From Aurantiochytrium sp. KH105 (lineage: Eukaryota; Sar; Bigyra; Thraustochytrida; Thraustochytriidae), in assembly GCA_003116975.1 (NCBI GenBank), contig BGKB01000112.1:62001-126000 (forward strand): 64,000 nucleotides of DNA, read 5' to 3'. The notes beneath the pieces are model-generated. The model made no database searches, had not been told where the DNA came from, and worked only from the letters and a program-made list of their open reading frames with translations. This document shows positions 22,164 through 54,608 of this stretch, piece after piece. Both the position numbers and the translations under genes were made by a program. Each line of letters begins with the position of its first letter. Within the stretch, counting starts at the first letter, position 1.

Positions 22164-25100
22164 CTAGATGAGGATGGGCGACTTGAGCAAAGCCAAAAGG
22201 ATCATAGGGTTGCGGTCAAGAAAATGGAGCATGGAGTGCGAGTCGATGACGAAAATGGAGGCTGTCTCCGAGTAACAGGCAAGCGTCGTGGTGAGAGGGC
22301 GGCCATGATGGCAGCCGTAATAGTCGAAAATAAGCATACCCGGCATAAGCGGGGCGTGTGTGTTGGAGGTGAGGTCAGCAGAATCCACGGGACCATGGAC
22401 CTCCTCGAAGATGAGCGTGCCGCGCGCCACGAGCATCGCCACCTCCACGGAGTCGCCCCGTCGCCAGAGACGCTCGCCGCGCCGCATGTGCTTCGTCTGC
22501 AGCAAACCCTGGAGTTGGGTCTTCTGCATCGATGAGAGCAAGCGCAGGCGCGAGTTCAGCGAGATCGCCTCCCAGGAACCATCCATGCGCGCGTGAATCA
22601 TGCTCTCCAAGCGCTCGCGCAGCACAGGGTCGTTGAGCAAAAGGTAATTTAGCGCGTATTTGTCAATCACCATGGCTCGCACATCCGTTTCTGCGCGCAC
22701 AGTCTCCTTGACGATCTGGTCGTCAATAAAGACCATCTCGCCATGATCCCGTGCCATTTGCAAATCCGCGTCCTCGCTGCTGTCTTCGTCGTCCTCGGAG
22801 GACCCCGCGCTGAGCATGGAATGCGTCGAGTACGAGGTCACGTGCGCGTGCGCGAGACCACCCACTAGAGACAGGAAACTGCCTTTCGAGCGATCGAGCA
22901 TTCCGAGGTGGGACTTTTGCTTGATAATGCGCGTCTGCTTCCAGGCGGCGAGTTCGCCAAGATAGTCACCGGCACGATAAAACTTGCGCAAGTTATCGTA
23001 TTCCACCGTGGCGCGACCTTGCAGAATAATCATGAAACGCTCATCGACCGTACCCTTTTCGAGAATGAGGGCATCGCGCGGGTAGAACTCCTCGTGGGCC
23101 ATGAGCATGAGATCGAGCGCCTGGTTCACGGTAAAGTGGCGAAAGATCTCAATCGACCCGAGCAGCTGCAAAAACTTGAGCATCTGGTGCTCCTCGCTGC
23201 GGGGAATAAGCACAATCGTGTTCTCCACGCCACATTCGGCAATACGAAAGCCCAGGTTGGCTGCCCGTGCCGCCGAATTAGCATCAATGTGGATCAGTCG
23301 CACGTTGCGTTTGTGCTCCTCGGGAAGGGCGGCCAGGGCGTCGAGCGGCGTGTGAATGGGCGGCACTCCCGCTTCATGCAGGACAACGTCGCAGTGCCAC
23401 GGAAAGTCTAAGAGCGCTTGCAGACGTTCGTCGCTGAGAATGCCTTCCTCGTTCATACGTTTCATCGCCGGCGGGTCGTAAAAGGTGTCGGCCGAATACA
23501 CAATGTCCTTGCCCTGAAAAGAGGCCTGGAAGCCGACGCACGGGATCGAATGCAGCGAGTAAAAGAAACGCAGGCTGGCTCCATTCCAATAGTTGGGCTC
23601 CTCGAGGAAGACGGGCCGGAAGTTGACCAACTGCTCGATGAATTCAGGTTTCAGCCCTGACACAGCCGCATACTTGCGCTTAAAGCTCTCAAAGATTGTG
23701 GTCGTGGTCATGAGGGTGATTTTGTGCTCCGTGATCATTTTTTGAAAGGTTCCGGCATCGTGATCAGCGTGACAGTGCGTGAGAATCAGGGCCGTAATAG
23801 AGTTGGGGGGAATGCCCGACTCGAAGAGCAAGGACGTGGAGTGCGGCGGCGGGTCCACCATGACGCCTTGGCCATTCACCCAGAGCACAAAGCCCGAGGT
23901 TGAGCCGTCTTTGTCAAAGCCGTGCGAATTGCCCAAGACCGTGAGACCAAACTTTGGAATCACAAAGGTCTCCTCGTCTGAAGTGCCTACGGGAGCCGCA
24001 TCCATCTGCAGCAGTCCCGAGCCGCGCTTGTGCTGTTCCTGCAGCGTGGCGGCAGCCGCTGCGCTCATGCCTGGGCCCAGGCGTCCGCTTGCAGACCGCG
24101 CGCTGCCACCTGCGAGCTTCAACATGCCCATGCGGTGCGAACGCGTTCGGCTTCCAACATCTCCTGCGGAAAGCGTGCTTTTCACCGATTGGCGCGCCAC
24201 CCCAGACCCTTTTCGGGAAAGCAAGGCTTCCTGGGAGAGAGAGGTCCCAAGAGGAGAGGGCTTCACGCGTTTGTGCGAGAGAAGCTCTTCGCGCGAACCG
24301 CCGCCAGCCACCGGACCTGGGCCGGGAACCTCGTCGCGACCGGCCAAAGCCATGTCGAGCCGCGGGACGAGCCCGCCGCTGATAGGTACCGTGCATGACT
24401 CTGCGACACGATACGGGATGAGAACGCCACCATCATCTGAAGCAGAGCTGTCACCCACGTCGTTGACGGTGCTGACTACGTTTTGCATTTTGGTGTCCAC
24501 GAGCTCAAAGCGAACATTATCCTCATCATCAAAAATCATCACACCGTTGCCCAGATCGCATACGCCGTACGTGTCAAAAAACTTTGGCTCGAGGAGCATT
24601 TCAATGTCCAGCATGTGAATGTTGCTCACCTGTCCGGGCTCGCGATTCGGGGCTCGAAAGTGAAAGACCTCCTTTTCATGGTCTGGGCACGCAGCGCGCA
24701 CCGACTCTGGACAAAAGTCAGAGTACTCCTTTTCGGCAAAAAGAAACTCGGATTTGGGCCCATTGAGCGCTTCCGTCATAATGGTTAGCAGGTCTTCCCA
24801 GGCATCGCGGTGCGTTACCAGCGTCGTTTTCCGCTTTCGAATGAAAAAATTGAAAAAAGCCGGAAACTCGAGCTCGCAAACGTTCACACCGGCGCTCATG
24901 TTGAATCGCTCACGCGGCACAACATAGATTTCCGGGACCTGCAGACCCATGGCCATGCTGTCCTTGACCGTTTCGGGAGGCATGCCAAATTGAACGGGCC
25001 CGATTGTTGTCCGTATGACCACGCCGCCACGTGGCAAATAGTCAATGAGGTTGCCGAGCTGCATGGCCTGATGTTCGGGCGATCGGCGATTCTTTTGATT

Positions 25101-25714
25101 CTTGGTCTCGCTCGGCTTGAGCGTCTTCTTGTGGTAGGCCGTGAGAAGTCGCGAAACGTTGACCATAAACGAAGTTACTCGGGACGAAGTCTGTCGGGAG
25201 ATTCGAGGCGCAGGGGACGGCGATTGGCCGTACGAGTCGTCCGAGTCCGTGTCTGCATCATCCTCTCGCGCGACCTTGGCCAAGGCCTCGACCATTCGAT
25301 CCTTTTGCCGACGTTTGGCGCGATAGCGGCCATTGCCATCGTCGTCGTCGTCGTCGTCGCCGGACTCTTCGGACGCAGACCCCTCTTCGTTATAGGGAAG
25401 GACATCGCTCCCCTCATCAACATCTTCCTCAACGACCTCGCCATCGATGATACTGTCATAATTCACCTCGGGACTCAGGGCGGGTGCGTGCTCCTCCTCG
25501 GAGTCCGAATCGTCCGAGTCCAGTGCCGTCTCGACGAGTGGAGCGGGTCGAGACTTTGTGCGCCATCCCAAGCCCCACGACTTGAGCGTACCTCTTCGCT
25601 GATCCTCGCGCTCTTCGGACACTTTATCCGGGGAAGCACCCTTTGCGACGGCCTCGTGCTTGGCGTCCGCTTGTTGCTGTTGATGACGATCACCAGCATG
25701 CTTCTTATCATCAC

Positions 25715-25748
<34 letters not shown>

Positions 25749-26567
25749 TTCATCATCCCCAGCACCAGCACCAGCACCACCATTGTTGTCTTTTCGCGCT
25801 TGTTGGGTACGCCGGCGCATCTGTTGAGCATAGGTAAGCTCTTGGGGAAGCAGCTGGGAGGGTTTACGCGCGCTCGCGACTTTGGGCCCACGGCCCACAA
25901 GGGGCAGCGGAACCTCTTCCTGCTGGCGGTCCAGCAAGTCGGCGAGCTGTTGGCGCAACGTCGAGTTCGTGCGCGATTGCACGCGCATGTGGGCGCTGGG
26001 AACGCGCAGCGAGGTGCTGTCGTCTTCAAAGACACTCGCACGGCCGGCCATGGGGCCACGGACATTGTGGGCGCTTACAGAAGGACGGCGTTCCACGACG
26101 GGGGGGTCGGGGACACCGATACGAAGGACTTCGTGCGGATCCTGCGACGAGGCGACCCTCTCGCGCACGGGCGTCACGACAGTCTGCAAGGGTTCTGCGG
26201 TGACTTTGGGCGTGAAGGGCACGCTTACGGCGACAGATCCGCTGCGCTCCTTGGCAGCGGCCGGCGTCTCTCTCGCGCGCGACGAGGCCGAAGATCTCGA
26301 CAGCGACCGCGACTGTCCTCGTTCCCGCTCTCGCGCCTCGAGTTGCTGTCCCCAGATCAGGTCGACCTCGGCTTCGGCCTCGCGGAGCTGCTCCTCGAGC
26401 TCCGCATTTCGCGCTCGCAGGGCCTCGAGTTCCTCCTCCACCTCCGCCGCCGCGCCTGCAGCTGCGTCCTCGGCGCCCTTTTCGCGCTGCTTCTTGTGCA
26501 GCTTGTTCGACGCCGTCGACGACTTCCTCCTCACGGCCGCGCTGTCGTTGCCCTTGCCGGCCCCCAT
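22164..26567 (-). CDS. Metallo-beta-lactamase-fold protein with cyclic-nucleotide-binding-like domains, 1467 aa
   Basis: Residues 1-560 are low complexity with acidic tracts and coiled coil, including a long Asp run. A conserved block follows at about 560-760 (PRGGVVIRTTIGPVQFGMPP and onward). The metallo-beta-lactamase domain starts near residue 900 with metal motif His-Cys-His-Ala-Asp-His at 931-936. A cNMP-binding-like domain lies at about 1137-1220 (GRATVEYDNLRKFYRAGDYLGELAAW; GEL present but no canonical Arg-Ala-Thr). A second, more degenerate one is at about 1350-1460. The combination recalls Dictyostelium GbpA/GbpB cyclic-nucleotide phosphodiesterases, so a class II-like cyclic-nucleotide phosphodiesterase is proposed. 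The start is set at MGAGKGND (26567), because the longer frame to 26975 reads through a CTTT microsatellite. Confidence 0.85.
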
Positions 26568-26868
26568 CGCCTCCCCCGCCTTCACGCGCGCCGCGCCCTC
26601 CCCGCGCGCGCGCTCAGAAGCGAAGCGCTCGCGCCGTCGAGTGGTTGACGATCGATTCTCTGCACGTGCTCGACGCGCGCGTGCGGCCGTGTGCGCGTCC
26701 TTCTCCCGCGCGACCGACCGACCGACCGCGCGCGCGCGCGAGCGAGCGAGCGGAGGCGCGTCCCCCGCCGCCTCGACGTCTTCCGCGGCGCCGGCGAGCT
26801 CGCGCTCCGCCTGTGTGTTGCTGCCGCCCGCTGTTGTTGTTTTGCTGCTTGTTTGTCGAAGCCGCGCT

Positions 26869-26921
<53 letters not shown>

Positions 26922-26935
26922 TTTCTCTCTTGTTT
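26869..26935. repeat. (CTTT)n microsatellite
   Basis: About 16 copies of CTTT just upstream of the MBL-cNMP start codon, probably in its promoter or leader. Minus-strand translation gives Lys-Glu-Arg-Lys repeats that artificially lengthen the open frame. Confidence 0.95.
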
Positions 26936-28304
26936 TCCTTCTCTCTCTCTTGCCTCTAACGCGCGGTGTGTGCACGTGCTCGCGCCGCGCTTGCTTTCCG
27001 CTAGCCAGCGCCTAGGCCCTCCTACGCGCAGCGCGTACGGCGCCTCGCTCGCTGCACTGCCCGACCCGCCGCCTTCTCCGCCTCCTCCGCCGCCTCCTCC
27101 GCCTCGGCCGCGACCGCGACCTCGACCTCGCGCGAGACGCGGCGCCGCGGCCCCCGAGCGAGGCCTCGCGCCGGGGCGGCGAGCAGAGCAGGGCCGGGAG
27201 GAGCGAGGAGGGGGGCGAGGGAGCGAGGGAGCGAGGGAGCGATGGAGAGGTGTGCCCAGGAGGCTCCCGCGCTCGACGCTCTCTTCTCGCCGAGGCCTCT
27301 CGCGCGCCGTAGCGCAGCGCAGCGCGGCGCGGCGCGGCGCCGCTCGAAGGGCGCCCAAGAGACCGGCCTCGCCGCGGCCGGCCGCGCGCGATTATGGAGC
27401 GGAGCCGAGCGGGGCGGAGCCGAGCAAAGGCACGATAACGGGCCGGCCCAGGCAGCCTGAGATAGGTTTCTCCCTCCCTCGCTCGCTCGCGAGGTCGCGC
27501 GATATACTGCTTGGAGCTCGCTCGAGCCTGCCGCTGCAGCTGCCTCGCGCTCGTCTCGCGGAGACGCGCAGGCCAGCAAGCTTCGTGAGCTTAGCAAGGT
27601 CTGCAAGGTTTGCAAGATTTGCAAGGTTTGCAAGGTTTGCAAGCTCGCAAGCTCGTAAGCTCGTCTGGGTTGGTTGCGAGATACAGAAGGCGAGGAGATG
27701 GCGAGACTGCAGCGCGTGCACAAGGGCTTGCCTCCACCTCTTGCTCTGCTGCTCTCGCGGACTACGTATCTGCGTATCTACGTGCCTAGCGCGGAAGATG
27801 CGCGACCGCGAGGCAGGCTCTGCTGTCTCCCTTCGCCCACGTACGTCTCGCTGCGCTACGCCGCGCGGGCGCGAGCGGACTCGGTGGGTCTTCGCTTTCT
27901 CTCTTGCTTGATGTCCTGCTCCTGCTCTTGCGCTGCTTTGCTCGCGCCTCGAGCTCCACTCGAGAGCGCCGCCTGCGCCCTCTTGCGCGCAGACGTTGCG
28001 TGCCGCCTGCCCACGCAGGCCGCTCTCGCGCGTCTCCGCTGACCACACCTGGCCTCGCGATGCTGTTTTGCTGACACGAGTGCGAGTGCATCGCGTGCGC
28101 TCTTCACCCGTCTCCCATAAGCGCGCTCGACCGAATTTGACCTGACTCGGCTCGCTCGCCTTGGCTTGCTTCGCGCAGCATTTGGCGCCTTCTGGCGTCT
28201 TCACGCGCGCCCGCTCGTCCGGCTCGAGGACGGCGAGCCTCCGCGGGACCCGGTCCTGGTTTTCGCGGCATGGCAGGGCTCGGCATGGCAGGGCATGGCA
28301 TGGC
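26936..28304. other. Divergent spacer, 1.4 kb, between the MBL-cNMP gene and the carrier gene
   Basis: The region is strongly GC-rich with CG-dense and GAGC/GCGC-rich stretches at 27050-27470. It contains a TTTGCAAGG array at 27602-27643. Both flanking genes point away from it, so it must hold two promoters. Overlapping open frames on both strands are Arg/Ala/Pro/Ser-rich artefacts. Confidence 0.5.
27602..27643. repeat. 9-bp tandem repeat (GCAAGGTTT), about 4.5 copies
   Basis: Units GCAAGGTTT / GCAAGATTT repeat in tandem, followed by related GCAAGCTC words to 27665. It lies about 660 bp upstream of the carrier gene. Confidence 0.85.
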
Positions 28305-32171: not shown

Positions 32172-33971
32172 ATGATGGAGAGAAACAAATTGCGGTCCAA
32201 AGCGACAATGACGGACGGGGTGCTTCGCGTGTGCGAGTCGTGCCCGCTGCCCGTGCGGCAGGAGGCGTTGTCCCGTGGCTGGCGTGTCATCGGTCCAGGT
32301 TCGACAGAAGATGAGGTCTCGGGTAGCCCAGTAAGCCAGCCTGCGTCAGAGCGTCGGCGCAAAACGAGACGCGGGCGAATTGGGGTCGCAGAGAACCCTC
32401 CAGCGGGCAGTCGGGTCTTCGAGCTGTACTGGCGCAACTCGAGGTTCACAAAGTCCGAATTCAAGACAGGCCATGATCGAGCCGGACGCATGAACCACTT
32501 CCCACACACCAAGTGCCTCACAAAGAAGGACCTCCTTATTCACGCAATGCGCAAGATGCGCGCTGTGCATGGCAAGATTTATGACTTTTTGCCCATGAGC
32601 TTTATTCTCCCGTCAGAGTACACCAAGTTTGTACACGCATACGCCGCAGAAGACGATGATCAGGTCTGTGCTTCAGCAAACAAGTCAATCGAAGGACACT
32701 CAGGTGATAAAAGTGCAGGTCGAGCGGTTTGGATCTGTAAACCTTCGGACTTGTCGCGCGGACGCAAGATTTTTCTCATCAAAGACCTCTCCGACCTTCA
32801 TTATGACCAGCAATACGTAGTCCAGCGCTATGTTCCTAATCCGTTGACAATTGGCGGATACAAGGTGGACTTGCGCGTTTACATTCTCGTCACAAGTATG
32901 CAGCCGCTGCGTGTTCACATCTTTCGCAATGGTCTCGCGCGTTTTGGCACGGTAAAGTACGACGACAAAATGCAGGACATTGACAACTTGTTTTCTCATC
33001 TTACAAACAGCAGCATCAACAAGTTATCGAATACGTTCGATCACGATAAGGAAGTGATTGGGTCAGGGTCGAAATGGGACTTTGGCGCGCTGCGGGAATG
33101 GTTCAAGAGCAATCAGCTCGGCGAAGCGGCATTCGCCACGTTGTGGGCGAGAATCTGCGATATAAGTCTGTGCACGATTCTTACAGCCCTGCCGTCCAAG
33201 CCGGTGAGTTCATCGTGTTTCGAACTCTTTGGCTTTGATATCCTCGTCGATGCGGCGCTGCGTCCCTGGCTGCTCGAGGTGAACTGTGCTCCGGCGCTTT
33301 CTATTGACGGTTCGACCGATCGTCGCGTCAAAGAGCCTCTTATTCGCGCTGTGTACGACCTCGTTCAGCAGCAACAACCTGTTGTAAAAACAAACCGACG
33401 CCGTGGCCTCCGTGCCATCGCGCCAAAGAACTCGAAATTGCGCCCTGCATCAGGGAAGACTCGAATCTGTCCTCTGCCCAACGCAGGCCTTCCGCCGCGG
33501 CCTGCCACGGCAGTTGCCGGGCAAAAACAAAAGGGACCTTGTGCTGGTGCTAGCGCTGGTGCTGCAACGACGATGACGTCGACGATAACAAGGAGCGCGG
33601 GTGTCAACAATAATGACGACGAAGAAACCCGAAGGCTGAGAGAAATCAGCCGAGAGGGCCAACAAGGCGCCTCGGGAGACGACAGCGGAACGGAGAATTT
33701 GCGTGCAATGGCCGCATCCACCGAAGGGGGGCAACACGATGACAACGACTACAAAGACGACGACGATGATTTATCGCGGTTTGATTGCATCTTCCCCTTT
33801 GACGAAACGACAGCGCAAGCAGCCCTGCTCATGGCCACGTGCCAAGGCCAAGCATCGCAGCGCAAGCTTGCGGAGGCAATCCGAATCATCGTGCAAGAAA
33901 TCCGCAAAAGGCGACGCGGCGCGATGCAAGCCGAGTGCGCAGTCTCCACCGAGGTCACGGCCTCCCGCTAG
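32172..33971 (+). CDS. Tubulin-tyrosine-ligase-like (TTLL) enzyme, 599 aa
   Basis: ATP-grasp motifs are in the family order: AVWICKPSDLSRGRKIFLI (about residue 183), YVVQRYVPNPLTIGGYKVDL with GYKVDLRVY (about 229), and FELFGFDILVDAALRPWLLE followed by VNCAPALS (about 370). The GSTDRRVKEPLI tail motif is typical of polyglutamylase/polyglycylase-type TTLLs. These enzymes ligate glutamate or related residues to tubulin tails on axonemes and centrioles. The catalytic and Mg-binding residues look present. The last 170 residues are low complexity (Asn, Asp, Thr runs) with a short basic helix. The ATG at 32172 is used; a second ATG follows at once. No intron. Confidence 0.9.
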   Translation: MMERNKLRSKATMTDGVLRVCESCPLPVRQEALSRGWRVIGPGSTEDEVSGSPVSQPASERRRKTRRGRIGVAENPPAGSRVFELYWRNSRFTKSEFKTGHDRAGRMNHFPHTKCLTKKDLLIHAMRKMRAVHGKIYDFLPMSFILPSEYTKFVHAYAAEDDDQVCASANKSIEGHSGDKSAGRAVWICKPSDLSRGRKIFLIKDLSDLHYDQQYVVQRYVPNPLTIGGYKVDLRVYILVTSMQPLRVHIFRNGLARFGTVKYDDKMQDIDNLFSHLTNSSINKLSNTFDHDKEVIGSGSKWDFGALREWFKSNQLGEAAFATLWARICDISLCTILTALPSKPVSSSCFELFGFDILVDAALRPWLLEVNCAPALSIDGSTDRRVKEPLIRAVYDLVQQQQPVVKTNRRRGLRAIAPKNSKLRPASGKTRICPLPNAGLPPRPATAVAGQKQKGPCAGASAGAATTMTSTITRSAGVNNNDDEETRRLREISREGQQGASGDDSGTENLRAMAASTEGGQHDDNDYKDDDDDLSRFDCIFPFDETTAQAALLMATCQGQASQRKLAEAIRIIVQEIRKRRRGAMQAECAVSTEVTASR

Positions 33972-34125: not shown

Positions 34126-37100
34126 TTAAAGCACAGACTGTGCAGGGATGGGCGCAGACGCGTCGAGCGGGACGACCTCGTGAAAGTGGTTAAAATTGAT
34201 GACAATTTTCTCCGGTTTCTTCTCGTCCGGACCGAAACACTCACGGAACCAGTGATTGTACATGATGTCGTCCATCGTGTACGAGTGGCGGGCCTGGAAC
34301 GTGGCCGAGGACTGCGCCTCGATTCCCTCGACAATGACGATAATCTCGAGCTCAGATGCCTCGATAAAATTTTGAATCGATTGCTTGACGTCTTTGACAT
34401 GCTTTTCCATAGGGTGCAAAGAAGAAGCCTGGCGCACACGCGGCCCGGATGCCGAAGATTCGCGCACGTTGGCCTCGACCTCGCGACGTTCGTTTTCGCC
34501 AGACTCCCGCACCACGCGATCACGGGAAATTAACGCCTCTACATCGAGGCCCGCATGCCCCGACGGTTTGTTAATGTTCGAGAGCTCCTTTAGGCGCTCA
34601 TCCGTAGTACCTCGAACTTGACTCAGCTTGACTGTCTTGTGATGGTGGATGCGGCGCGAGGTGCCTCGACGAACTTGGTCTTGATATGCCTTTTCCATTC
34701 TCTGGTGCATGCTGCTGGGCCGCGAACTGCTGTGATAGTGGCTTGTGCTGCGTCTCTGGCTTTGCGAGCTCTGTCGAGAGTCTTCGCGAGCGCGATCGCT
34801 CGCGAAAAGGGAGTGCAGAGAGCGGATGCTGTCCTGGCCTGAAGGTCGGGCCGGCGGGTCCTCGACGCTGTTTTGCGGCCGCGCCGGGAGCGACCTTGTC
34901 TTCTCGATCTGGTCCGGATCACTTTCGAAGAAGTTGACCTTGTGCGAAGACGAAGTCTCTGTCGTAGCATCGTCGCCGTCTTTGCTCTGTTGTTCGCTCT
35001 CGACAGCATCGCTGGCGGGTTCTGTATGCTCGGATCGTAGACGAGGTCGCAAAATAGGCAGCGGGGCGCTTGGGTCCTTGGCATCGTCTGCCTCCGAGCT
35101 GATGTCGTCGTAGTGGTCATCGTCTTCGTCGTTGTCATCTTCGTCGTTGGGATGATAGTCGTCATCTTTTACAGTGTTCTGGGAGCCGGCAGGATCCTTG
35201 GATGAATGTCCAGAGCGACTCGACGTAAATGACGAGGTGGACGGTGAAACTAAGGTTCGCGATGCGGACTCGGGGTCTACTGCGTCCAAGACAGACAGAG
35301 CAACTGTGGGCGGCGGGGGCAGCGAACGCTTGGCTCGGGGCGCACGGTTGCCATCTGCGGGAGAGGCGAAAGCGTCCTCTTTCTTTGCATCATCGTCCTC
35401 TTCTCCGTTCTTTGCGTCGCCATCGTCGTCGTCGTCGTCGTCGTCATCGTTGTCTTCTTCATCATTATCATCATCGCTTTCGCTGTAATATGCACCCTCT
35501 AGGTATTGCTGATACCGGATATGGCGCAAAAGGTGCTCATCGGTATAAAACGTCGTTCCGCAAACCGGACACTGCGCGCCGTTGCGTCCAGCAACAGCTG
35601 CATCTGCCTCTCGAAGATTGACGTTGGGGTATCGATAGCGATTGGCCTGGTTGTGTACAAAGCCATCGTCGTGCGTTTGCCAGTGCTCACGACGCAATGT
35701 GGGTGGTAAAAGAGGGCTCCATTGATCAATTTCGTGCACGACGGTGCAGGGAACGCTCAAGAACAGATTGGCCCCGAGCTCATCGTCAGGGTTGATGAGA
35801 CGCATGTGCCGCGTCTGGAAATTTGCCGTCGTGTTGCCGTCGCTTTCGTTCATGACAACGTAGCAGCGAACGTGCGCTTCGACAATGGGGGCATGCATGT
35901 CGAGGTCATAGCACTGGAAGGAAAAGAAGAACTTGCCATTGCGATGAATGATGCAGGCCTTGTCACTGAAAATGACCTGGTGGCTGCGCGTGTCGGCGCG
36001 GCCGACGCGCATGACAACGAGAGAAATGCAGAGGGCATTGAGAAGGACTCCGAAGAAGCATTGCCACCAGATAATGGTGGGGAGCTGAAAGCAGCCTCGC
36101 CAAAAGGCGCCTTCGTGACTGTCGGGGAGCCCAAACCCTGAGGTAGCGGCGGTCTCGAGGGCAAAGGCAAAAGCCATTTGAAACGGATGCTTACCCGTCT
36201 CGGAAGTATCAACGATGTCTAGCGCACAAGTCTCGTTGAAAGGATCATTGAACAGCGAGTAGAGTCCGGCAAAGACGAGTAGGTAGGCCGTGTAAATAAA
36301 AATGAGACCAATAAAGAGAATGTGAGTGCGCTGTGTAAGCGTCCTATGAAACCAATCGTCTCGGTAGAGAACAAAGATATCGCGCAAGGTATTTTGCGAG
36401 CCGACCTGGTCGATCTTGAGTTCTCCTGAACTTTGATGATACCACTGGTCTCTGAGAATGATGCGGCGGGACCAACTCACATCCGGGTCTTCGCTGACGT
36501 CAGACATGGTGAACTCACTTGACGTCATTGAATCCTGACCAACGCTTTGTCGGTGGTGGTGGTGGTGGTGGTGGTGGTGGTGGTGCTGACCATGATGGTT
36601 GTGATGTGTGTGGTGGTTGGCCGCAAGCAAGTTGGAAATGGATCTGACGCGTTTTAGATTCGACGAGAGAATGGACGAGAATGATGATTGTGAAGACAGC
36701 GTCCCGGCGGACCCAAGTCGGCCTCGACGCAAGGTGATGACGTTGGGGGACCGGGGTGAGCTTGATAGCTGGCTCTCCACATCGTCTTCATCGTTGTCGT
36801 CCGCGGGCTCGGCCGAAGACGACGGACGCTTGGGGAGACTGAACCATCGTCGAGAACGAGGAGCCGAAGTCATGTTATCCCCTCGTTTGTGTGCGCGTTG
36901 CATCCGATGGAGCGCGCCACGTTTGCTGTCGCCGCACGTCGAGCAAGAATCAGAGCTCATGAGCCGTCTGCGACTTTGTTCGGGTCCAGGACCTCGTGTA
37001 GTGCTGCTATTGGCATCTTTGCCTTGTCGAGGAGCAGCATTCGCTCGATCTGCAAAGAGACCATTCAATGCCGAGGCACCCGTTGCGCCTCGTGCTCCAT

Positions 37101-37545
37101 CTCTACCGCGAGGGGAGCTCGGCCCACTACCAGCAGCAGCAGCCGTAGCAGATGCACCGGCAGCGCCTCCACGGCTTGAAGAGCGGGGCTTTCCTCGAGG
37201 CGTGGACCCCCGTGTTGGGTTTCGTCTATCGACTCCATTCCACGCGGTAAAGCTCGATCTTCGACTACCGTGAGAAAAGGGCGTGTGCTCGAGCACTTCC
37301 TCGTCCTCTTCTTCGGCCGCTCGACGTTGCCGTCTGCGTGCTGCGCGGTGACTGGGGACGCCCTCCTCTTCGTCGAGGTCGTCTTCGTCCAGTGGCGTCG
37401 GGACGCGCACGCGGACATCGTCTCCATTCCCGCTACCGCCGCCGTTGCCGCCGCCGCCGCCGCCGTCGCCGCTGCTGCCGCGGCCTCGCCTCCTCTCTCC
37501 GCCGCCGCCGCCGCCGCTGCGAGCGCCTCCGCGCCCGGACATCAT
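34126..37545 (-). CDS. Inward-rectifier K+ channel (Kir-like) with ~445-residue insertion, 1139 aa
   Basis: Residues 1-370 are disordered: Gly-rich start, Arg/Ser, and a poly-His run near 320-330. The Kir core follows: slide helix and TM1 (about 408-433), pore with filter Thr-Ser-Gly-Phe-Gly at 468-472 (canonical Kir is Thr-Ile-Gly-Tyr-Gly), and TM2 (about 488-513) with Asn503 at the rectification-control position. The cytoplasmic beta domain runs up to HEIDQWSPLLPP (about 614). A long insertion (about 615-1060) then interrupts it, with an incomplete C2H2-like finger (CPVC at 659-662, His675, second His replaced by Gln), Asp/Glu-rich and Ser-rich tracts. The beta domain resumes at SELEIIVIVEG (1064-1074) and ends INFNHFHEVVP, as in Kir. 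Membrane location is expected. One exon. Confidence 0.88.
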   Translation of the reverse strand: MMSGRGGARSGGGGGGERRRGRGSSGDGGGGGGNGGGSGNGDDVRVRVPTPLDEDDLDEEEGVPSHRAARRRQRRAAEEEDEEVLEHTPFSHGSRRSSFTAWNGVDRRNPTRGSTPRGKPRSSSRGGAAGASATAAAAGSGPSSPRGRDGARGATGASALNGLFADRANAAPRQGKDANSSTTRGPGPEQSRRRLMSSDSCSTCGDSKRGALHRMQRAHKRGDNMTSAPRSRRWFSLPKRPSSSAEPADDNDEDDVESQLSSSPRSPNVITLRRGRLGSAGTLSSQSSFSSILSSNLKRVRSISNLLAANHHTHHNHHGQHHHHHHHHHHHRQSVGQDSMTSSEFTMSDVSEDPDVSWSRRIILRDQWYHQSSGELKIDQVGSQNTLRDIFVLYRDDWFHRTLTQRTHILFIGLIFIYTAYLLVFAGLYSLFNDPFNETCALDIVDTSETGKHPFQMAFAFALETAATSGFGLPDSHEGAFWRGCFQLPTIIWWQCFFGVLLNALCISLVVMRVGRADTRSHQVIFSDKACIIHRNGKFFFSFQCYDLDMHAPIVEAHVRCYVVMNESDGNTTANFQTRHMRLINPDDELGANLFLSVPCTVVHEIDQWSPLLPPTLRREHWQTHDDGFVHNQANRYRYPNVNLREADAAVAGRNGAQCPVCGTTFYTDEHLLRHIRYQQYLEGAYYSESDDDNDEEDNDDDDDDDDDGDAKNGEEDDDAKKEDAFASPADGNRAPRAKRSLPPPPTVALSVLDAVDPESASRTLVSPSTSSFTSSRSGHSSKDPAGSQNTVKDDDYHPNDEDDNDEDDDHYDDISSEADDAKDPSAPLPILRPRLRSEHTEPASDAVESEQQSKDGDDATTETSSSHKVNFFESDPDQIEKTRSLPARPQNSVEDPPARPSGQDSIRSLHSLFASDRAREDSRQSSQSQRRSTSHYHSSSRPSSMHQRMEKAYQDQVRRGTSRRIHHHKTVKLSQVRGTTDERLKELSNINKPSGHAGLDVEALISRDRVVRESGENERREVEANVRESSASGPRVRQASSLHPMEKHVKDVKQSIQNFIEASELEIIVIVEGIEAQSSATFQARHSYTMDDIMYNHWFRECFGPDEKKPEKIVINFNHFHEVVPLDASAPIPAQSVL

Positions 37546-40859: not shown

Positions 40860-43800
40860 ATGGCAGAATGGTCGGATGACATCGACGAGCTCGCGGAGGT
40901 CCTCCGCGTGTACAAGTCGCTGGGCGCCGAGCGCGAGTCGCGGCTGATAGACCTCATCACCCCGTACAGACGGTTCCTGCGCGAGGAAAGCGTCGACATC
41001 AAGGTCGCCCCCTTCAGCGCCAATGTGTGCAAACCGGCCACGCTCTTCATGTTCAAAGACATGATCCTCCTCGCGGAAAATGTTGACGAGCGAAGCGAGG
41101 CAGTCAGCCCCACATGGGTCGGCGCCATCGCCAATCAAGGCAGGCGCCTCTCGAGGCGCCTCTCCTCCCGCTCCTCGGCCAGCATGAGCGAAAGCAAGTC
41201 CATGTCGTCAGACTCGTCCGGCCCCGCGCCCTACAAGCTGACGCACCGTCTTGACCTCGAACGATGCACGATCAAGCGCCACGCCCCGGATGCCAGCGAC
41301 ACGGGCTTCCAACTTACCCACGTCAATCGCATCCGCGACGAGCATAATCATCTCGCCACGTACGTGGACATGGTCGAAGTCTGGTGCAACTCCATGGAAC
41401 AGGCCGACGCGATCTACCACGACATTGAGGACCTCATCGAAGATGTGCACCTTGCTCACGAGGACGACGAGCGCAGACAACGCGAGCAAAATGCCGCCGG
41501 ACGCGAATCTGACGCGACCTCTCTCACCTCGGCTACCTCTCTCACCACTGACGGCTCCAAAAGCACTGGAGCGAGCCGAAAGTGGGCAAAAGGCAAGCGT
41601 CTCAACCGGAGAAATGGCTCCCAACGCACTCTCGGCACGACTGCTTCTGCAGGCTCGGAGGCCAACCTGGCGCGCCGAAGCCGCGGTTCATCAATGGCCT
41701 CGAGTACGGACGGAAGCACGACCGGCTCGGCGGCGCTCACCCTCTCGGACTTGGAGCATCGCTATCGCGTAGAATACTCTCGCGAAGACAAGCACGAAGC
41801 AGAGTTTTCCGCTGTTTTCGGCGAAGGCGCCATGGGTTTCTCGCTCAGTTCCGGGACGGGGCTCGGCGTCATCATCGGACGCGTTGCTGACTACAGCATG
41901 GCCGAAGCTGGTGGCGTCGAGGTGGGTGACCGCGTTTTGCGCATTGGCGACGTTGATCTCACCCTCGAAACGACCTGGCGCGAGGCCGTCAACATCATTA
42001 AATCCGTCGAGCGTCCCGTTGAAATCAGATTCGTGCGCAACTTCACCGTCAACTCCCACATTCAGCGCGCCGAGGAGCGCAAGAAGCGAGTCTCGGCACG
42101 CCGCGCGACCGCGTCTGCTGCAGCAGCCTCTCACGCCGCCACCGACTCGTCCAAACTTCGCGCCGAGCGCGCGCGCGCACGGGCGGAGCGTGCAGCTGCG
42201 CGCCAAGGAGGCCGCCGGTCCACCGACCGCACAAACTCGGCCTCTAGCGATGGTCAGCGCTCCTGGGTGCGCCGCCGCCATCGCAACCGCAGCTTCGGCA
42301 CGCGCATCATTGCTCTTGACGAGCTCGAGGCCATGTACCGCAAGACCGGCGATCAGCGAAACTCGGACGACCAAGTCATGGAGGTCTTTGCTCTTTTGGG
42401 CGAGTCCTCTTCCGAAAATGTTCGAGCCTGCGCGAACACCCTAGGCGAGATCTTTGATACCGAGTGCGCATTCGTGCGTGACCTGCGCATCATCGTCGGA
42501 GATTTCCTCCTGCCCATTCGCCGCACCGTCCATCACGTTCGCTGCAAGGACATCTCCTCAGGGTCCACCTTTTGCGAGCATCATCAGCCGCGCATGGCCT
42601 GTTACAAGACGAGTCAGGAGACTCGTCCCATTCTTGAGGCCGACGCCATCCGGGACATTTTTCTCAATATCGAAACTCTCGTCAAGGTCAACGCCGAGCT
42701 CCTCGACGTCCTCAATGGCAAAATCATGGAAGCTCTCGATAAGGCTGACGGCCCCGAGAATGTCACCGTCACCGACCTCGTGCACATCTTCGCGCCTGCC
42801 TTTACGCGTGTCATGCCCTTTTTCCGCATCTACTCCCTCTATTGCCACTCGTACACTGCTGCGCAAGACAGGCTTCTTGTCGCCCGCCTCCGCAACAAGA
42901 GCCTCGACGATCTCATCAAGCAGCGCGAAGCCAAGACGGGGACAACGCTGATGCACCTGCTTATCAAACCGGTGCAGCGCATCTGCAAGTATCCCCTTCT
43001 CTTCCAGTCCCTCTTGCGCGCTGTCATTCCCTATGTCACCGAGGAAATCAAGTCTGGCGCCGATGTCGACAACTTGGACAGCCTCGTTGGGGAGCTCGAG
43101 AGCGCCATGGCGATTGTAAATAAAATCGCCAAGTCCGTCGATCAAAAGGTCGGCGAGCAAGAGAGTCTCGGCCGCATGATGCAAGTATACGCAGAGCTCG
43201 GTGGCGAGGCCGCCGTGCCCAAGCTCATTGCGCCGAGTCGTCGCTTCGTTGATCGCTTCGAGGTGCTCTTGCGCCAGCAGCCCTTTGATGACCTCGATGA
43301 TCCGGAGCAGCACCGACTCTTCGTCTTCAACGACCATCTCGTCTTTGCTGTGCACAATCCCGTTGGTTACCCTGCGCGCAACGGCAGTCTTCGTCGTCAC
43401 AACAGCAAGCGGTCCCTGAAAAAGTCCACTGCTGGATCCTCTCTGACCAAGAGACTCTTTGGGAGACGCACCTCGAGCCAGAGCACCTCAAGCATGGATT
43501 CCGACCGTCGTTCCAGCGGTGGTGGATCCATCGCCACCGCGAACGCCACGCGGACGTCTGCGTCCACCTCGGGTGGCCGCTCCAGCGGTGGTGGTGCTCT
43601 CCGTGCGCTCGCCGGGGCCATCACCTTGCGCCTTGATCTGCACAAATGTACACTCAAGGCAATTCACGACCCTGATGAAGCTGATTGCTTTGGCATTGTG
43701 CTTTCTTATATCTCTCGCGAAGTCGAGGATGAGGACGCTGCGGCTGCGGCGGCGGCGGCTGCCGATCTTTCCAAATCGCGCAAGGGGAGCTCCAGAACGA

Positions 43801-44081
43801 TCAATCGCGCTGAGTCTGTCCCTACTGTTCGCACCGGTCCTATCCGTACCAGGATTGACAAAATCCAGCTCTGGCTTGCCACTCCGGAGAGCCGCGATCA
43901 AATCATGCGCGTTCTCCAGGCTCAAATCGACCTTTTGCAGCAGCTCGACATCAGCACCAAAGAGGCCACCAGGGCTGTGGGCCCCAAGATCAAGGAGCGC
44001 AACTGGCGCAAACTGACCCGGGCTCGCAGCAGCGTTCAGCGAGCCTCTCGCTTCGCACCCTTGAACCCTACCGAGCCTTGA
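40860..44081 (+). CDS. RhoGEF with PH-PDZ-DH-PH architecture, 1073 aa
   Basis: The N-terminal PH-like domain spans about residues 40-205, from ATLFMFKDMILLAEN to EQADAIYHDIEDLI, and is split by a Ser/Arg-rich insert around 80-125. A PDZ domain at about 315-395 contains MGFSLSSGTGLGVIIG and GGVEVGDRVLRIG. The Dbl-homology domain at about 525-770 has LGEIFDTECAFVRDLRII, AIRDIFLNIETL and LLIKPVQRICKYPLLFQSLL. The second PH (about 790-1040) begins RRFVDRFEVLLRQ and is interrupted by another Ser-rich basic insert. DH-PH modules load GTP onto Rho-family GTPases, so membrane and actin signalling is the likely role. The ATG at 40860 follows GAGGA and starts a conserved-looking acidic helix. No intron. 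Confidence 0.92.
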   Translation: MAEWSDDIDELAEVLRVYKSLGAERESRLIDLITPYRRFLREESVDIKVAPFSANVCKPATLFMFKDMILLAENVDERSEAVSPTWVGAIANQGRRLSRRLSSRSSASMSESKSMSSDSSGPAPYKLTHRLDLERCTIKRHAPDASDTGFQLTHVNRIRDEHNHLATYVDMVEVWCNSMEQADAIYHDIEDLIEDVHLAHEDDERRQREQNAAGRESDATSLTSATSLTTDGSKSTGASRKWAKGKRLNRRNGSQRTLGTTASAGSEANLARRSRGSSMASSTDGSTTGSAALTLSDLEHRYRVEYSREDKHEAEFSAVFGEGAMGFSLSSGTGLGVIIGRVADYSMAEAGGVEVGDRVLRIGDVDLTLETTWREAVNIIKSVERPVEIRFVRNFTVNSHIQRAEERKKRVSARRATASAAAASHAATDSSKLRAERARARAERAAARQGGRRSTDRTNSASSDGQRSWVRRRHRNRSFGTRIIALDELEAMYRKTGDQRNSDDQVMEVFALLGESSSENVRACANTLGEIFDTECAFVRDLRIIVGDFLLPIRRTVHHVRCKDISSGSTFCEHHQPRMACYKTSQETRPILEADAIRDIFLNIETLVKVNAELLDVLNGKIMEALDKADGPENVTVTDLVHIFAPAFTRVMPFFRIYSLYCHSYTAAQDRLLVARLRNKSLDDLIKQREAKTGTTLMHLLIKPVQRICKYPLLFQSLLRAVIPYVTEEIKSGADVDNLDSLVGELESAMAIVNKIAKSVDQKVGEQESLGRMMQVYAELGGEAAVPKLIAPSRRFVDRFEVLLRQQPFDDLDDPEQHRLFVFNDHLVFAVHNPVGYPARNGSLRRHNSKRSLKKSTAGSSLTKRLFGRRTSSQSTSSMDSDRRSSGGGSIATANATRTSASTSGGRSSGGGALRALAGAITLRLDLHKCTLKAIHDPDEADCFGIVLSYISREVEDEDAAAAAAAAADLSKSRKGSSRTINRAESVPTVRTGPIRTRIDKIQLWLATPESRDQIMRVLQAQIDLLQQLDISTKEATRAVGPKIKERNWRKLTRARSSVQRASRFAPLNPTEP

Positions 44082-47980: not shown

Positions 47981-50900
47981 TTAAGCTTCGACGAGTTTTT
48001 GTTCTTCCTCATCTTGATCTTGATTGATTTCTTCGTCGCCAGGTGTGGTTCCTTCTCGTGCAGGGCTGTTGCTAGCGTTGCTTGCTTTAGGAGAGAGCGC
48101 TTCGTCTCCGGCCATGTCCACGTCGCCGAGCTTGGCGACCCCCGGTTTCAATTCTGAAATGTCCACATCGAGCTTGCTGGCCACTGCGGCAAGCTCCTTG
48201 TTGGCGACGTCCTGGAAGCCCTCCACTGCGCGGTCGATCTTCTTACGTCGCTCTTTCGCGATCGAGCGTCTTCGCTCCTGCTCCTTGGCCTTTTCACTAA
48301 TTCTTGCCTGCACCTCTTCATTTTTCCGTCGAGTCTCTTCCTCGATCTCTCGCGCCTTGGCGAGCGCTGCCTCCTTTTCTTGTTGGAGCTTTTCTGCCGC
48401 CTTTTTACGACGCTCTTCTTGCACGGCTCGCCGCTGTTCGTGTCGGACCTCTTGGGCGAGACGCTGTTCCTCGGCTCGCTTTCCCGCCGCCTTGCTCTTG
48501 GCCGTGAGCTCGATGCGTCGCCTGTCCGTGTGAAGCTCGCGCTTTTGTGCAGTCAACGCGGCATTCATCTCGCGCTCCAGCCTGACCTTGAGCAGAGCAG
48601 CTTCGGTTCGCTCTTGCTGAGCTTGTTTCTCCTGGACGGCCTCAAACTTCTCCCGGACCTTCTTCTTGTGAGCCTTCTCCTCTGCGAGGCGCTGCTGCTC
48701 CTCTTCAGCAGCGCGAGCCTGCTTTTCGGCAATGTGCTTTTCCAGCATTTTGCGATTTTGCGCTTGACGCGCGCGCCGTGCCTTGTCTTTGCGTTCCTCG
48801 GCCTCACGCTCGGCCTCTGCCCGAGCGGCAACCTCGGCCTCTTGCTTCGCTTTCAAGGCAGCTCGCTTCTCAGCTTGGGCCATGCCGATGCCCCGCAGTT
48901 GCTCTCTTCGACGCTGCATGTACTCTCGCTGCTTCAAATCTGCGGCACGGCGTTCGGCCTCTTCGCGTTTGCGACGAGTTTCTGTCTTCTCCTGCTTGCG
49001 CAGCTGCAGATACTCTGATTCGGCGGCCTTCTCCTCGACACGAGCGAGAAAAGCCTTTTCCTTCTCGCTCAGAGGCGGATGATACACGCGCACCGACTTG
49101 CACCCTGGAGATGAGGGGTCGACTCCGTCACCGCCGTTTCCGTTTCCTGCAGCGGCAGATTCGTCGGGTTCTTCGGATACAGAGACAACTACACGCGGTG
49201 GCGCGTTGCGTTCTTCTTTGTCAAACGTCAAGGTTGTGCCAAACCCAGTTCGAGCGGCTTTGGCCTCCCGTTGCTTGCGCAAAACTTCCTGCTGTCCGCT
49301 GATCTTCATTGCTGGATAGAGACGAGTGTCCACTGGGATTGTTGGCATAAAGTCCTTGCTGTTTTCCCCGACGACCTTGAGCACCTCGCTCCGCTTATTC
49401 TCGGACCGTACAGGCAGAGGAATGAGTAAATGTACGTTAAAGGTTGAGGCGAGAATTCCATCAATGACCTCGAGTGCTGCTGCCACAGCCTCCTGACGCC
49501 CTCCCGCTTCTTCCGACCCACCAAGACCCTCGGGAACGATGTGCTGGTACTCTGGGACCTCGTCGAGGTCGGCCCACGACACGATGATTCTCTTTTGGTC
49601 AGGGTCCACGTGATCAAGCTTGACCTGATTTGGTGCATCCCTGATGGCTGAATCGCGAAGGTAGGCGAGCAGGGCCCCAACTCTGCGTGCTGGCTCGGGC
49701 TCAATACAGAATGCTGGCACCGTAGCTGCGCAGTACGCCAGCGAACGCACAAATTCATCGTATGTTGCATCGACAGCAGGCTTGGTTTTGCCCTTGTGAA
49801 ACGCAGCCTTGGCTTCGTTCTGGTTCATCACATTCGGGACCAAATGATATGTTCTGAGCAGCCGCAGCCAATGTTGCACGGAGAGAAGTCCTCGTTGCGC
49901 TTGCATCTCGTCAAAGGATTTGCCGAGGTGAACTCCGAGTCCAGTGCCCGGTTCGACGGCATGTCGAAAGACTGCTCGCAGGATATCCTCGAATCGAGTC
50001 AAAGCTTCCACCTCTTCATGATGCGAGGGTCCTGAGGCATGTGCTTGCGAATTGGGACCTTCGTCTCGAGCGCGGCGTTCGCGGATACGGCGATCAAATT
50101 TTTGGCGCAACAGGCGTCGTCGCTCGCGACGTTTTCGGCGGTCCTCTTCTGCCTTTGCACGCTGTGCTTCCTGCACGGCTACGCGTCTTTGGCGGCAGCG
50201 TTCAATGTCGCGTTGCACCACCTCAGCGGCCGCGCTTGGGAGCGCAGCGTACGAGGCGCGAGTTTGCGCCCCGGTCGTCAACGACCGCAGCGTCTTCTTC
50301 GACCCCGACCTTCCAATACCATGCATCGGCCTGCGTTCTTGGTCGCGCGCCTTTTCCTTTGCCCAGAAGTGCTCCACGAGCACGGACTCTAGGTCGCGCT
50401 TGCGAACGGCGCCTTGGCGTGGGGACTTGAACCTGCGAACCTTCTCCTGAACCTTGCGGTCCCGCAGAGCCTGCGAATGTGGGCAGGCAAGAATGGCGCG
50501 CTTGGGTACGCTGTCTTCGTCCGAGTTCACGGCGCGGAGGAAGGTGACCTTGTCCACGTAGCCCGAGTCCGCGACATCGAGCGCCGCGAAAGCGTGCTCA
50601 AGGCCTGGGAATCGGGGTAGCGCGCGTTCGATGATCTGGCGCGCGGTGTTTGCGCTTTTCTTTTGTTCCTGCCGCATTTGCGCGCGTCTCGCTTTGGCGA
50701 GACCAGTCCCGAATCCCTGATGCTGGTGTTGCGACTGCTGCTGGTGCTGCTGCTGACGCTGATTTTGCACTCGTCGTGATGGATGCGCGCTCGGGTCAAC
50801 AGCAAGTGCTTCGTCCGCGCTCCCAGGAAATGGCGAGGGCACTTGGCGCTGCTGCTGTGGCTGCTGTTGCTGCTGCTGCCCTTGGGCAAAAGGACTGGCC

Positions 50901-53545: not shown

Positions 53546-54608
53546 CGCGCGCATTCTATGTATGCCTGACTGTCAAATCAAGAGCAAGTTCGTCTACGAC
53601 GTCTCCAGACGCTCGCAGAACCCGAGAGCTTTCCGTCTCTGCTGGCTGCGCGCGCAAACGCAAATATCCACACACAGAACGCGCCGTCGCACAACTCCTC
53701 GCTGCCGCTGTTGCCGTGCGTCACGAGCCAGCCGACCAGCCAGGCCGGCAGCCAGGTGAACCAGCGCGCAAGCGAACAAAGCGCTCTGGCCCCTGCAATG
53801 CGACCAGCGTCTCAAAGCAACGCGCCGCCGCAGGCAGAGCCTCTGAGTCTCGGAGTCCTACCTGCGTGCCTACCTTGATTCCATTTCCTCCGCGCCCGTG
53901 CTCGTTTTGCTCGTTAGTGCCTTCGCTCGCGCGACGACAGCGCCTCCCTGTCCCCTCTCACAGAAACGGTGTGTACTCCGTGGATTCACGCTTCCCCTGC
54001 GTCTCCCCGTCTTTTCCGCATTCTGGGCGCATCACGGCATGGCGCGGACCTCCGCGCCATACCTGGCTGACGAGGCCCCTCGTTCCCGCGCGGTCGGGCC
54101 TCGGAACTATCCCCGTGCCCGCTGGGCCCTGCCGCGACTGCGACCGCGGCTGCGACCCATGTTTCGCGCAGCCAGATCGACAGCCAGATGCTAGCTAGGC
54201 CGCGGCAGCAGCACCTCGGACCTTCGCGGTCTCTCCGACCCGCGCGTTGCGCAGGCCCCTGTTTCGCGGGCCCCCGAAACGGGCTGTTATCGTCCCGTGA
54301 TTGGCAAGTGCGCAATCCGTCCACCAATCGACAATCCGTCGTTTGGTCGACTTGTGGGGCGAAAGGCCGACTGTGAGCGGGGCGCGCCGCAGTCGGTGGT
54401 TGATCGCTCCGTCGAGGCCTGCTCGAACGAGCTCCTGCTCCGGCCGAACATGGCGAGCGCAGAAACCCAACTCGCGAGCGCCTTCTCGTGCGCGGGCACG
54501 GGAGCGAGCGAGGAGCGAGGGGGCGAGCGGGGAGCGGAGGCGCGAGCGGACGAGCGAGGCGCGAGGAGACTCTGCGTCCGCGCGACGCGGCGCCGGGACC
54601 CGACGAGG
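53546..54608. other. Divergent spacer, 1.1 kb, with two promoters
   Basis: GC-rich spacer between the divergent CH-like and JmjC genes. Minus-strand and plus-strand Arg/Pro/Ser-rich open frames overlap everywhere and show no domain. An in-frame ATG at 54450 could extend the JmjC protein. Confidence 0.5.

Follow-up and report, generated by a model that had tools for sequence, protein, structure and literature searches.

A Kir-family potassium channel gene of Aurantiochytrium sp. KH105 with a coding insert in its cytoplasmic domain

Known regulators of Kir channels (lipids, nucleotides, G proteins or separate subunits) bind to the channel chain from outside. Here we describe K1, a Kir-family gene on the reverse strand of a 64,000-nucleotide stretch of the Aurantiochytrium sp. 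KH105 genome (the window; assembly GCA_003116975.1, contig BGKB01000112.1, positions 62,001 to 126,000, or G000:C112:62001-126000), whose C-terminal cytoplasmic domain is interrupted by a long insert. Among the closest known parallels are engineered Kir2.1 channels that likewise carry a foreign domain in the cytoplasmic domain, some of them light-modulated or more active; in the passages available, the C-terminus is highly permissive and sites at betaD-betaE and alphaH gave modulated channels (PMC6336875, PMC8654947). Those are laboratory constructs, whereas K1 is natural, and its insert is under purifying selection and stands directly ahead of strand betaH.

Protist Kir homologues are known: PMC3283738 describes those of Toxoplasma and Cryptosporidium, and 'IRK' genes are reported for the oomycetes Phytophthora infestans and Plasmopara halstedii, with IRK transcripts of P. 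infestans rising 5-fold in spores (PMC5322657, PMC10031896). The passages available from these three papers report no such insertion, and the word 'insertion' is not present in those from PMC3283738 on the Toxoplasma and Cryptosporidium channels; these channels are set beside K1 by description, not by sequence. Oomycetes, distant kin of thraustochytrids, have annotated inward-rectifier genes according to these passages, so a comparison is possible. A literature search (queries on Kir and potassium channels, thraustochytrids, protists and insertions) found no description of an insertion of the K1 type or of a Kir-GST fusion, and a scan for relatives in viral_contigs (116 pattern matches) and genome_contigs (124), two collections without eukaryotes, confirmed none.

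Kir identity and the interrupted domain

The genome sampled comprises 76 Mb in 367 contigs. K1 is a single open frame of 1139 amino acids counted from ATG, and a second copy (L050:1479-4946, reverse strand, 1155 amino acids) shares 96% nucleotide identity with the window copy. Against Pfam, K1 scores 74.4 bits with IRK_C (cut-off 22.5) in two stretches, the better being residues 524-613, and both halves were also matched when the genome was searched with IRK_C. The transmembrane family IRK stays below cut-off (14.9 bits vs 22.7), and a genome search with it recovers the paralogues K2 and K3 only. The nearest solved relative by phmmer against the Protein Data Bank (PDB) is Kir6.1 (chain 7mit_A, E 1.2e-19), aligned over K1 residues 386-613 and then separately over 1064-1105, the chain alignment ending at residue 278 and restarting at 288. 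That second stretch is weak (i-Evalue 0.27). Residues 341-613 alone match PDB at E 1e-16, and the second half by itself also has significant matches (best E 1.2e-5, to Kir2.2), which rules out a split created by the alignment.

Searched apart, the first half of K1 matched 44 PDB sequences and the second half 34, with 32 distinct sequences in both. Linker spacing was taken from these 32, leaving out the 12 and 2 found by a single search (the 2 being 1p7b and 2wll); they represent six animal proteins (Kir2.1, 2.2, 3.1, 3.2, 6.1 and 6.2), some as crystal constructs or chimeras. The spacing between the equivalents of K1 residues 612 and 1065 is 11 residues in 23 of the 32 and 12 in the other nine, all of them Kir6.2. 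K1 thus resembles the animal Kir6.1/Kir6.2, Kir2.x and Kir3.x (KCNJ) channels in its two-helix pore, GFG/GYG-type filter and IRK_C domain, but where they have 11-12 residues it has 452; the short linker ahead of betaH, which it lacks, is a common Kir trait and not a defining one. Judged by these alignments, K1 is a Kir-family potassium channel with its C-terminal domain split at 612/613 and resuming at 1064. This agrees closely with a first-pass annotation of the sequence, which had placed the break near residue 614 and the restart at 1064 (SELEIIVIVEG) and had put an insertion of ~445 residues (here 451, residues 613-1063) where known Kir channels have about ten (here 11 or 12). Unrelated open reading frames (ORFs) placed side by side were ruled out: a single open frame spans the two halves in each copy, and each half is Kir.

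The pore reads ETAATSGFG, which fits T-x-G-[YF]-G with the pore Glu, Ser being unusual at the second filter place, where Ile or Val is usual. C440 and C485, presumably the Kir pore cysteine pair, are invariant across six K1-K3 rows, and a fourth paralogue, K4, is without the equivalent of C485. The filter TSGFG, found in both K1 copies in place of TIGYG/TIGFG, would suit a non-conducting or modifying subunit that mainly brings the conserved module of its insert (below) into heteromers with K2 or K3; K2, in this genome too, combines TIGYG with that module. We consider this improbable, since K1 keeps the pore Glu, both filter Gly and two pore Cys, its channel core (residues 341-613) differs between the copies by 15 synonymous and 0 amino-acid changes, and the filter Ser may be tolerated.

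The segment SELEIIVIVEG that follows the insert is, we assume, the strand reaching Gly312/Met313 of Kir3.2, both on betaH. On this mapping the insert ends directly before betaH and re-enters the channel at the strand running into the G-loop gate. Insertion at the betaD-betaE alcohol/G-beta-gamma loop (GIRK2 L257) was considered and dropped, as the passages available (Kir2 L245) put that loop ~35 residues earlier, an offset obtained partly by counting in Kir2.1 numbering. For Kir3.2, the G loop is placed between betaH and betaI, on the side towards the membrane, and gating is expected to involve a movement of betaH (PMC3823594).

Selection and conservation along the insert

Four Kir genes are each present twice in the genome. 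Because the K1 copies are so nearly identical in DNA and dS is ~0.06-0.10 per pair, the members of each pair are taken to be the two haplotypes. When the K1 copies are compared, insert codons 614-1063 show 29 synonymous changes (306 sites) and 14 amino-acid changes (1044 sites), giving dN/dS = 0.134, and codons 614-690 show 3 and 0; the synonymous excess has p = 5e-10 for the insert and p = 0.011 for 614-690 alone. Each of the five indels in the coding sequence, two of which lie within the insert, has a length divisible by three, compared with 11 of 30 outside it (one end overhang left out). Nucleotide differences number 89 in 3411 coding, 142 in 1527 upstream and 41 in 992 downstream positions.

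The insert is, on this comparison of copies, coding and under purifying selection. The first-pass annotation had asked for an intron across this region to be ruled out; were the insert a retained or unannotated intron, the mature protein would be an ordinary Kir. Six frame-keeping GT..AG pairs (3 GT and 5 AG places) do lie near the borders, as expected by chance. Running against an intron are the open codons (451 in the window copy, 464 in the other), the frame-preserving indels, the synonymous excess and the amino-acid conservation, between K1 and K2 and, at the insert start, between K2 and K3; we give the intron next to no weight. At the sequence level an intron or frameshift artefact is ruled out, with the frame kept in the other haplotype. 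Selection on the coding sequence speaks against an intron as the only form, and alternative splicing may occur.

Conservation is greatest at the start of the insert, where the first ~73 residues are, by sequence comparison, a real module, with an identity inside the span seen for the domains of the channel itself (45-69%). Over residues 613-685, K1 and K2 are identical at 42 of 73 positions (58%), compared with 45% in the transmembrane part and 69% and 50% in the first and second halves of the C-terminal domain, and the alignment score of 236 compares with at most 53 in 1000 shuffles. A genome search with the module gave four places at E < 1e-20, corresponding to two genes in two copies each; elsewhere in the genome none was found, two further matches having E > 0.1 and the one region inspected being judged chance. 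K2 and K3 have in common a motif around FPG...R..D.E.G.RD (score 67, reached in 0 of 2000 shuffles, maximum 46).

Within the module lies the incomplete C2H2-like finger that the first-pass annotation had noticed (CPVC..TF.TD.HLLRHIRYQQ; Cys659, Cys662, His675). The last zinc-ligand place is Gln in both K1 and K2, so the full C-x2-C-x12-H-x3-5-H pattern fails; a further His (His671 in K1) is conserved in K2, and an alternative pairing with it is possible. With the inserts searched alone, Pfam zf-C2H2 scores 20.8 bits in K1 and 19.0 bits in K2 over profile positions 2-21 of 23. The K1 insert has sub-threshold Pfam matches only: zf-C2H2, FYDLN_acid (taken to reflect acidic low complexity) and two others that are weaker still. 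Against PDB it matches zinc fingers, with E values no better than 0.008. The finger region is the best-modelled part in AlphaFold (pLDDT 55-60), with short strands and then a helix, a beta-beta-alpha order in a low-quality model that does not contradict the sequence; zinc fingers make up nearly all the 50 Foldseek matches shown for the predicted segment, none of them significant (best E 0.46). The degenerate finger of Nizp1 reportedly docks a protein. K1 resembles C2H2 fingers, including the C2HR finger of Nizp1 (PDB 2nab, one of those Foldseek matches), in the C-x2-C-x3-F-x5-L-x2-H pattern and the predicted strand-strand-helix order, and differs in having Gln as last zinc ligand and in being a lone finger within a channel.

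The ~375 residues after the module are largely acidic and Ser-rich, faster-changing and probably disordered. Residues 691-930, with 20% Asp and 15% Ser, contain the Asp-rich and Ser-rich tracts of the first-pass annotation; of the 14 amino-acid changes in the insert, 13 fall here, as do both its indels, and a dN/dS of 0.167 makes this the fastest-changing part of the insert. Their composition, and the joining of the insert to a pore-lining strand, betaH, would fit a tether that is itself the active part, binding Ca2+, Mg2+ or polyamines or competing at the cytoplasmic pore/PIP2 site and so setting rectification. The chance of this seems slim, given how fast the tract changes and that the acidic part is much shorter in K2 and absent from K3. 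In the distal insert (residues 931-1063), 4 of 2000 shuffles reach the K1-K2 score, and an island of the form RR-HH-K-VK-S...GH...D is weakly conserved between the two (BLASTP E 1.8). The 'sensory or docking module' of the first-pass annotation therefore holds in part: the insert does contain a conserved 73-residue module, but only ~73 of its 451 residues are clearly module-like and the rest is largely low complexity.

Kir paralogues, feature positions and neighbouring genes

Searching the genome with IRK_C gave 14 matches at 8 places, that is, four genes in two copies each. The residues between SPL and the betaH strand number 451/464 in K1 (C112/C24), 334/334 in K2 (C49/C90) and 99/99 in K3 (C7/C10), and in K4 (C85/C83) IRK_C positions 1-158 are matched without interruption. 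Three of the four Kir genes thus have a longer linker at the same place, and the long linker is, as far as these alignments go, a family trait in this genome and not peculiar to K1. The first-pass annotation would have counted a long linker in all Kir homologues of related species against its reading; within this genome that applies in part, the linker being long in K1-K3, at very different lengths, but K4 has no insertion. Most simply, the linker would have expanded before K1, K2 and K3 separated, and the motif common to K2 and K3 makes it likely that the start of the expansion is ancestral; the finger would have been gained in K1/K2 or else lost in K3.

The variation in linker length among the paralogues also favours the chief rival explanation, a tolerated surface-loop expansion in which the conserved start does no more than pack on the channel as a fold patch, with low-complexity filler of no regulatory role making up the remainder. 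The Asp/Ser-rich tract with nearly all the changes and both indels fits this explanation, as does K3, which has the site without the finger. So do the many similar Asp-rich tracts of the genome: 33 of 52 genome DNA matches to K1 (40 of 227 candidates scored) fall on the Asp-rich stretch alone (ORF nucleotides ~2064-2176). On the other side, the module is conserved between K1 and K2 about as well as the channel, including the Cys, His and hydrophobic positions of the finger, which a plain spacer should not keep. We regard tolerated expansion as a serious possibility, though a somewhat unlikely one.

The other paralogues have features of their own. K2 (L051:2194-4749, reverse strand, and L052:2480-5035, forward strand) has the filter TIGYG, but the pore Glu of K1 and K3 is replaced in it by Ile (SLITSSTIGYG). 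K3 (L053:3537-5186, forward strand, and L054) reads TIGYA, not TIGYG, in both copies and may be poorly K+-selective; it has Asp at the position where, we assume, strong rectifiers have it. K4 (L055:862-5610 and L056:1066-5793, both reverse strand; 1582 and 1575 amino acids) has an uninterrupted IRK_C (54.5 bits). Behind it, without a break in the open frame, come three GST-type modules (GST_N_2, three stretches and 96.1 bits; GST_C_2, also three stretches; CLIC-like_N, 40.3 bits), and dN/dS between the K4 copies is 0.148 over the whole length. From its domain content, this Kir-GST fusion could be a redox-sensing channel.

Table 1. Positions of K1 and its parts in the window.
Feature	K1 residues	Window position	Strand	Basis
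K1, Kir-family potassium channel gene		34126..37545	-	ORF, Pfam, PDB matches, second copy
N-terminal region, low complexity	1-340	36526..37545	-	sequence
His-rich tract ahead of first transmembrane segment	310-333	36547..36618	-	sequence
Kir transmembrane part (two helices and pore loop)	341-523	35977..36525	-	PDB Kir matches
Filter TSGFG	468-472	36130-36144	-	sequence
C-terminal domain, first half, ending HEIDQWSPL	524-613	35707..35976	-	IRK_C profile 1-88; PDB Kir matches
Insert, 451 amino acids	613-1063	34357..35709	-	halves searched apart; copy comparison
Conserved proximal module	613-685	35491..35709	-	58% identity to K2; part common to K2 and K3
Degenerate C2H2-type finger	659-680	35506..35571	-	Pfam zf-C2H2 below cut-off
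Acidic/Ser-rich fast-evolving tether	691-930	34756..35475	-	composition; 13/14 insert changes, both indels
Distal insert	931-1063	34357..34755	-	weak island common to K2
Weakly conserved RR-HH-K-VK-S...GH...D island	964-1023	34477-34656	-	shuffle test vs K2
C-terminal domain, second half (betaH, G-loop region, later strands) and stop	1064-1139	34126..34356	-	Kir2.2 match; IRK_C profile 94-161

The N-terminal region of K1 matches no Pfam family at E 0.1 and has dN/dS = 0.115 between the copies. Its His-rich tract may bind metal, and the same protein also has the Cys/His finger. Convergent with K1 and ~150 bases away is a tubulin-tyrosine-ligase family gene (32172-33971, forward strand, 232.8 bits). 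Further neighbours in the window are a 1603-amino-acid ORF (22164-26975, reverse strand) with metallo-beta-lactamase-type (1024-1075) and cyclic-nucleotide-binding (1296-1346) domains by Pfam, a 1073-amino-acid ORF (40860-44081, forward strand) with PDZ and RhoGEF domains (Pfam), and a 1857-amino-acid ORF (47981-53554, reverse strand) without a Pfam match at E 0.1. Elsewhere in the genome, the profile of the polyunsaturated fatty acid (PUFA) synthase PfaA matches C72:311448-314912, C155:172083-175544, C61:32-2791 and C290:39390-42377, below its cut-off; the same profile also matches in 11 of 14 control genomes. The PfaA matches are split over two contig sets and lie at contig ends for C72, C155 and C61, possibly through an assembly break in acyl carrier protein (ACP) repeats.

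Possible regulation at the G-loop gate

Set against tolerated expansion, we lean slightly towards reading the insert as a lineage-specific docking or regulatory module tethered directly before betaH and the G-loop gate. The two ends of the insert would be neighbours on the outer face of the cytoplasmic domain, leaving the channel able to fold as a tetramer with four modules. The finger would bind a protein partner (or metal), DNA binding being unlikely for a lone finger without its last His, and such binding would shift betaH and the G loop or anchor the channel, thereby tuning K+ conductance.

Several results weigh against this docking or regulatory reading. The finger scores of K1 and K2 are below the Pfam cut-off of 25.2, and a Pfam scan of whole K1 at E 0.1 does not list the finger. 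AlphaFold gave poor models both when run with 6 rows (mean pLDDT 33.6) and for segment 595-700 with 4 rows (mean pLDDT 45.9). Within the insert, the likeness of K1 to K3 falls short of significance when taken alone (202 of 2000 shuffles score as high), as does that of K1 to K2 over the whole insert after the module (123 of 2000), and the last 45 insert residues show no significant likeness in any pair (K1-K2 277, K1-K3 72 and K2-K3 825 of 2000). By its composition and its matches, the acidic tether looks like an ordinary low-complexity expansion, common in this genome. The linker expanded in K1 is presumably alphaG of Kir2.1, and if it is, evolution succeeded where laboratory insertions failed. 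In the passages available on domain-insertion profiling of Kir2.1, several cytoplasmic sites are permissive, alphaG and betaN are not, and G-loop insertions broke function (PMC6336875).

A stronger form of the regulatory reading would make K1 a natural ligand- or partner-gated Kir, in which the finger module ahead of betaH drives the G-loop gate and which duplication has diversified into finger-bearing (K1 and K2) and short (K3) forms. We think this unlikely as it stands, and we know of no Kir channel with such regulatory input. A selected module within the fold, beside the gate strand, would be a natural counterpart of laboratory domain-insertion switches, and it shows that the site before betaH can be opened up while the channel stays under selection. 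The four Kir genes of this genome, with 451, 334, 99 and no inserted residues, make the effect of the insertion directly testable.

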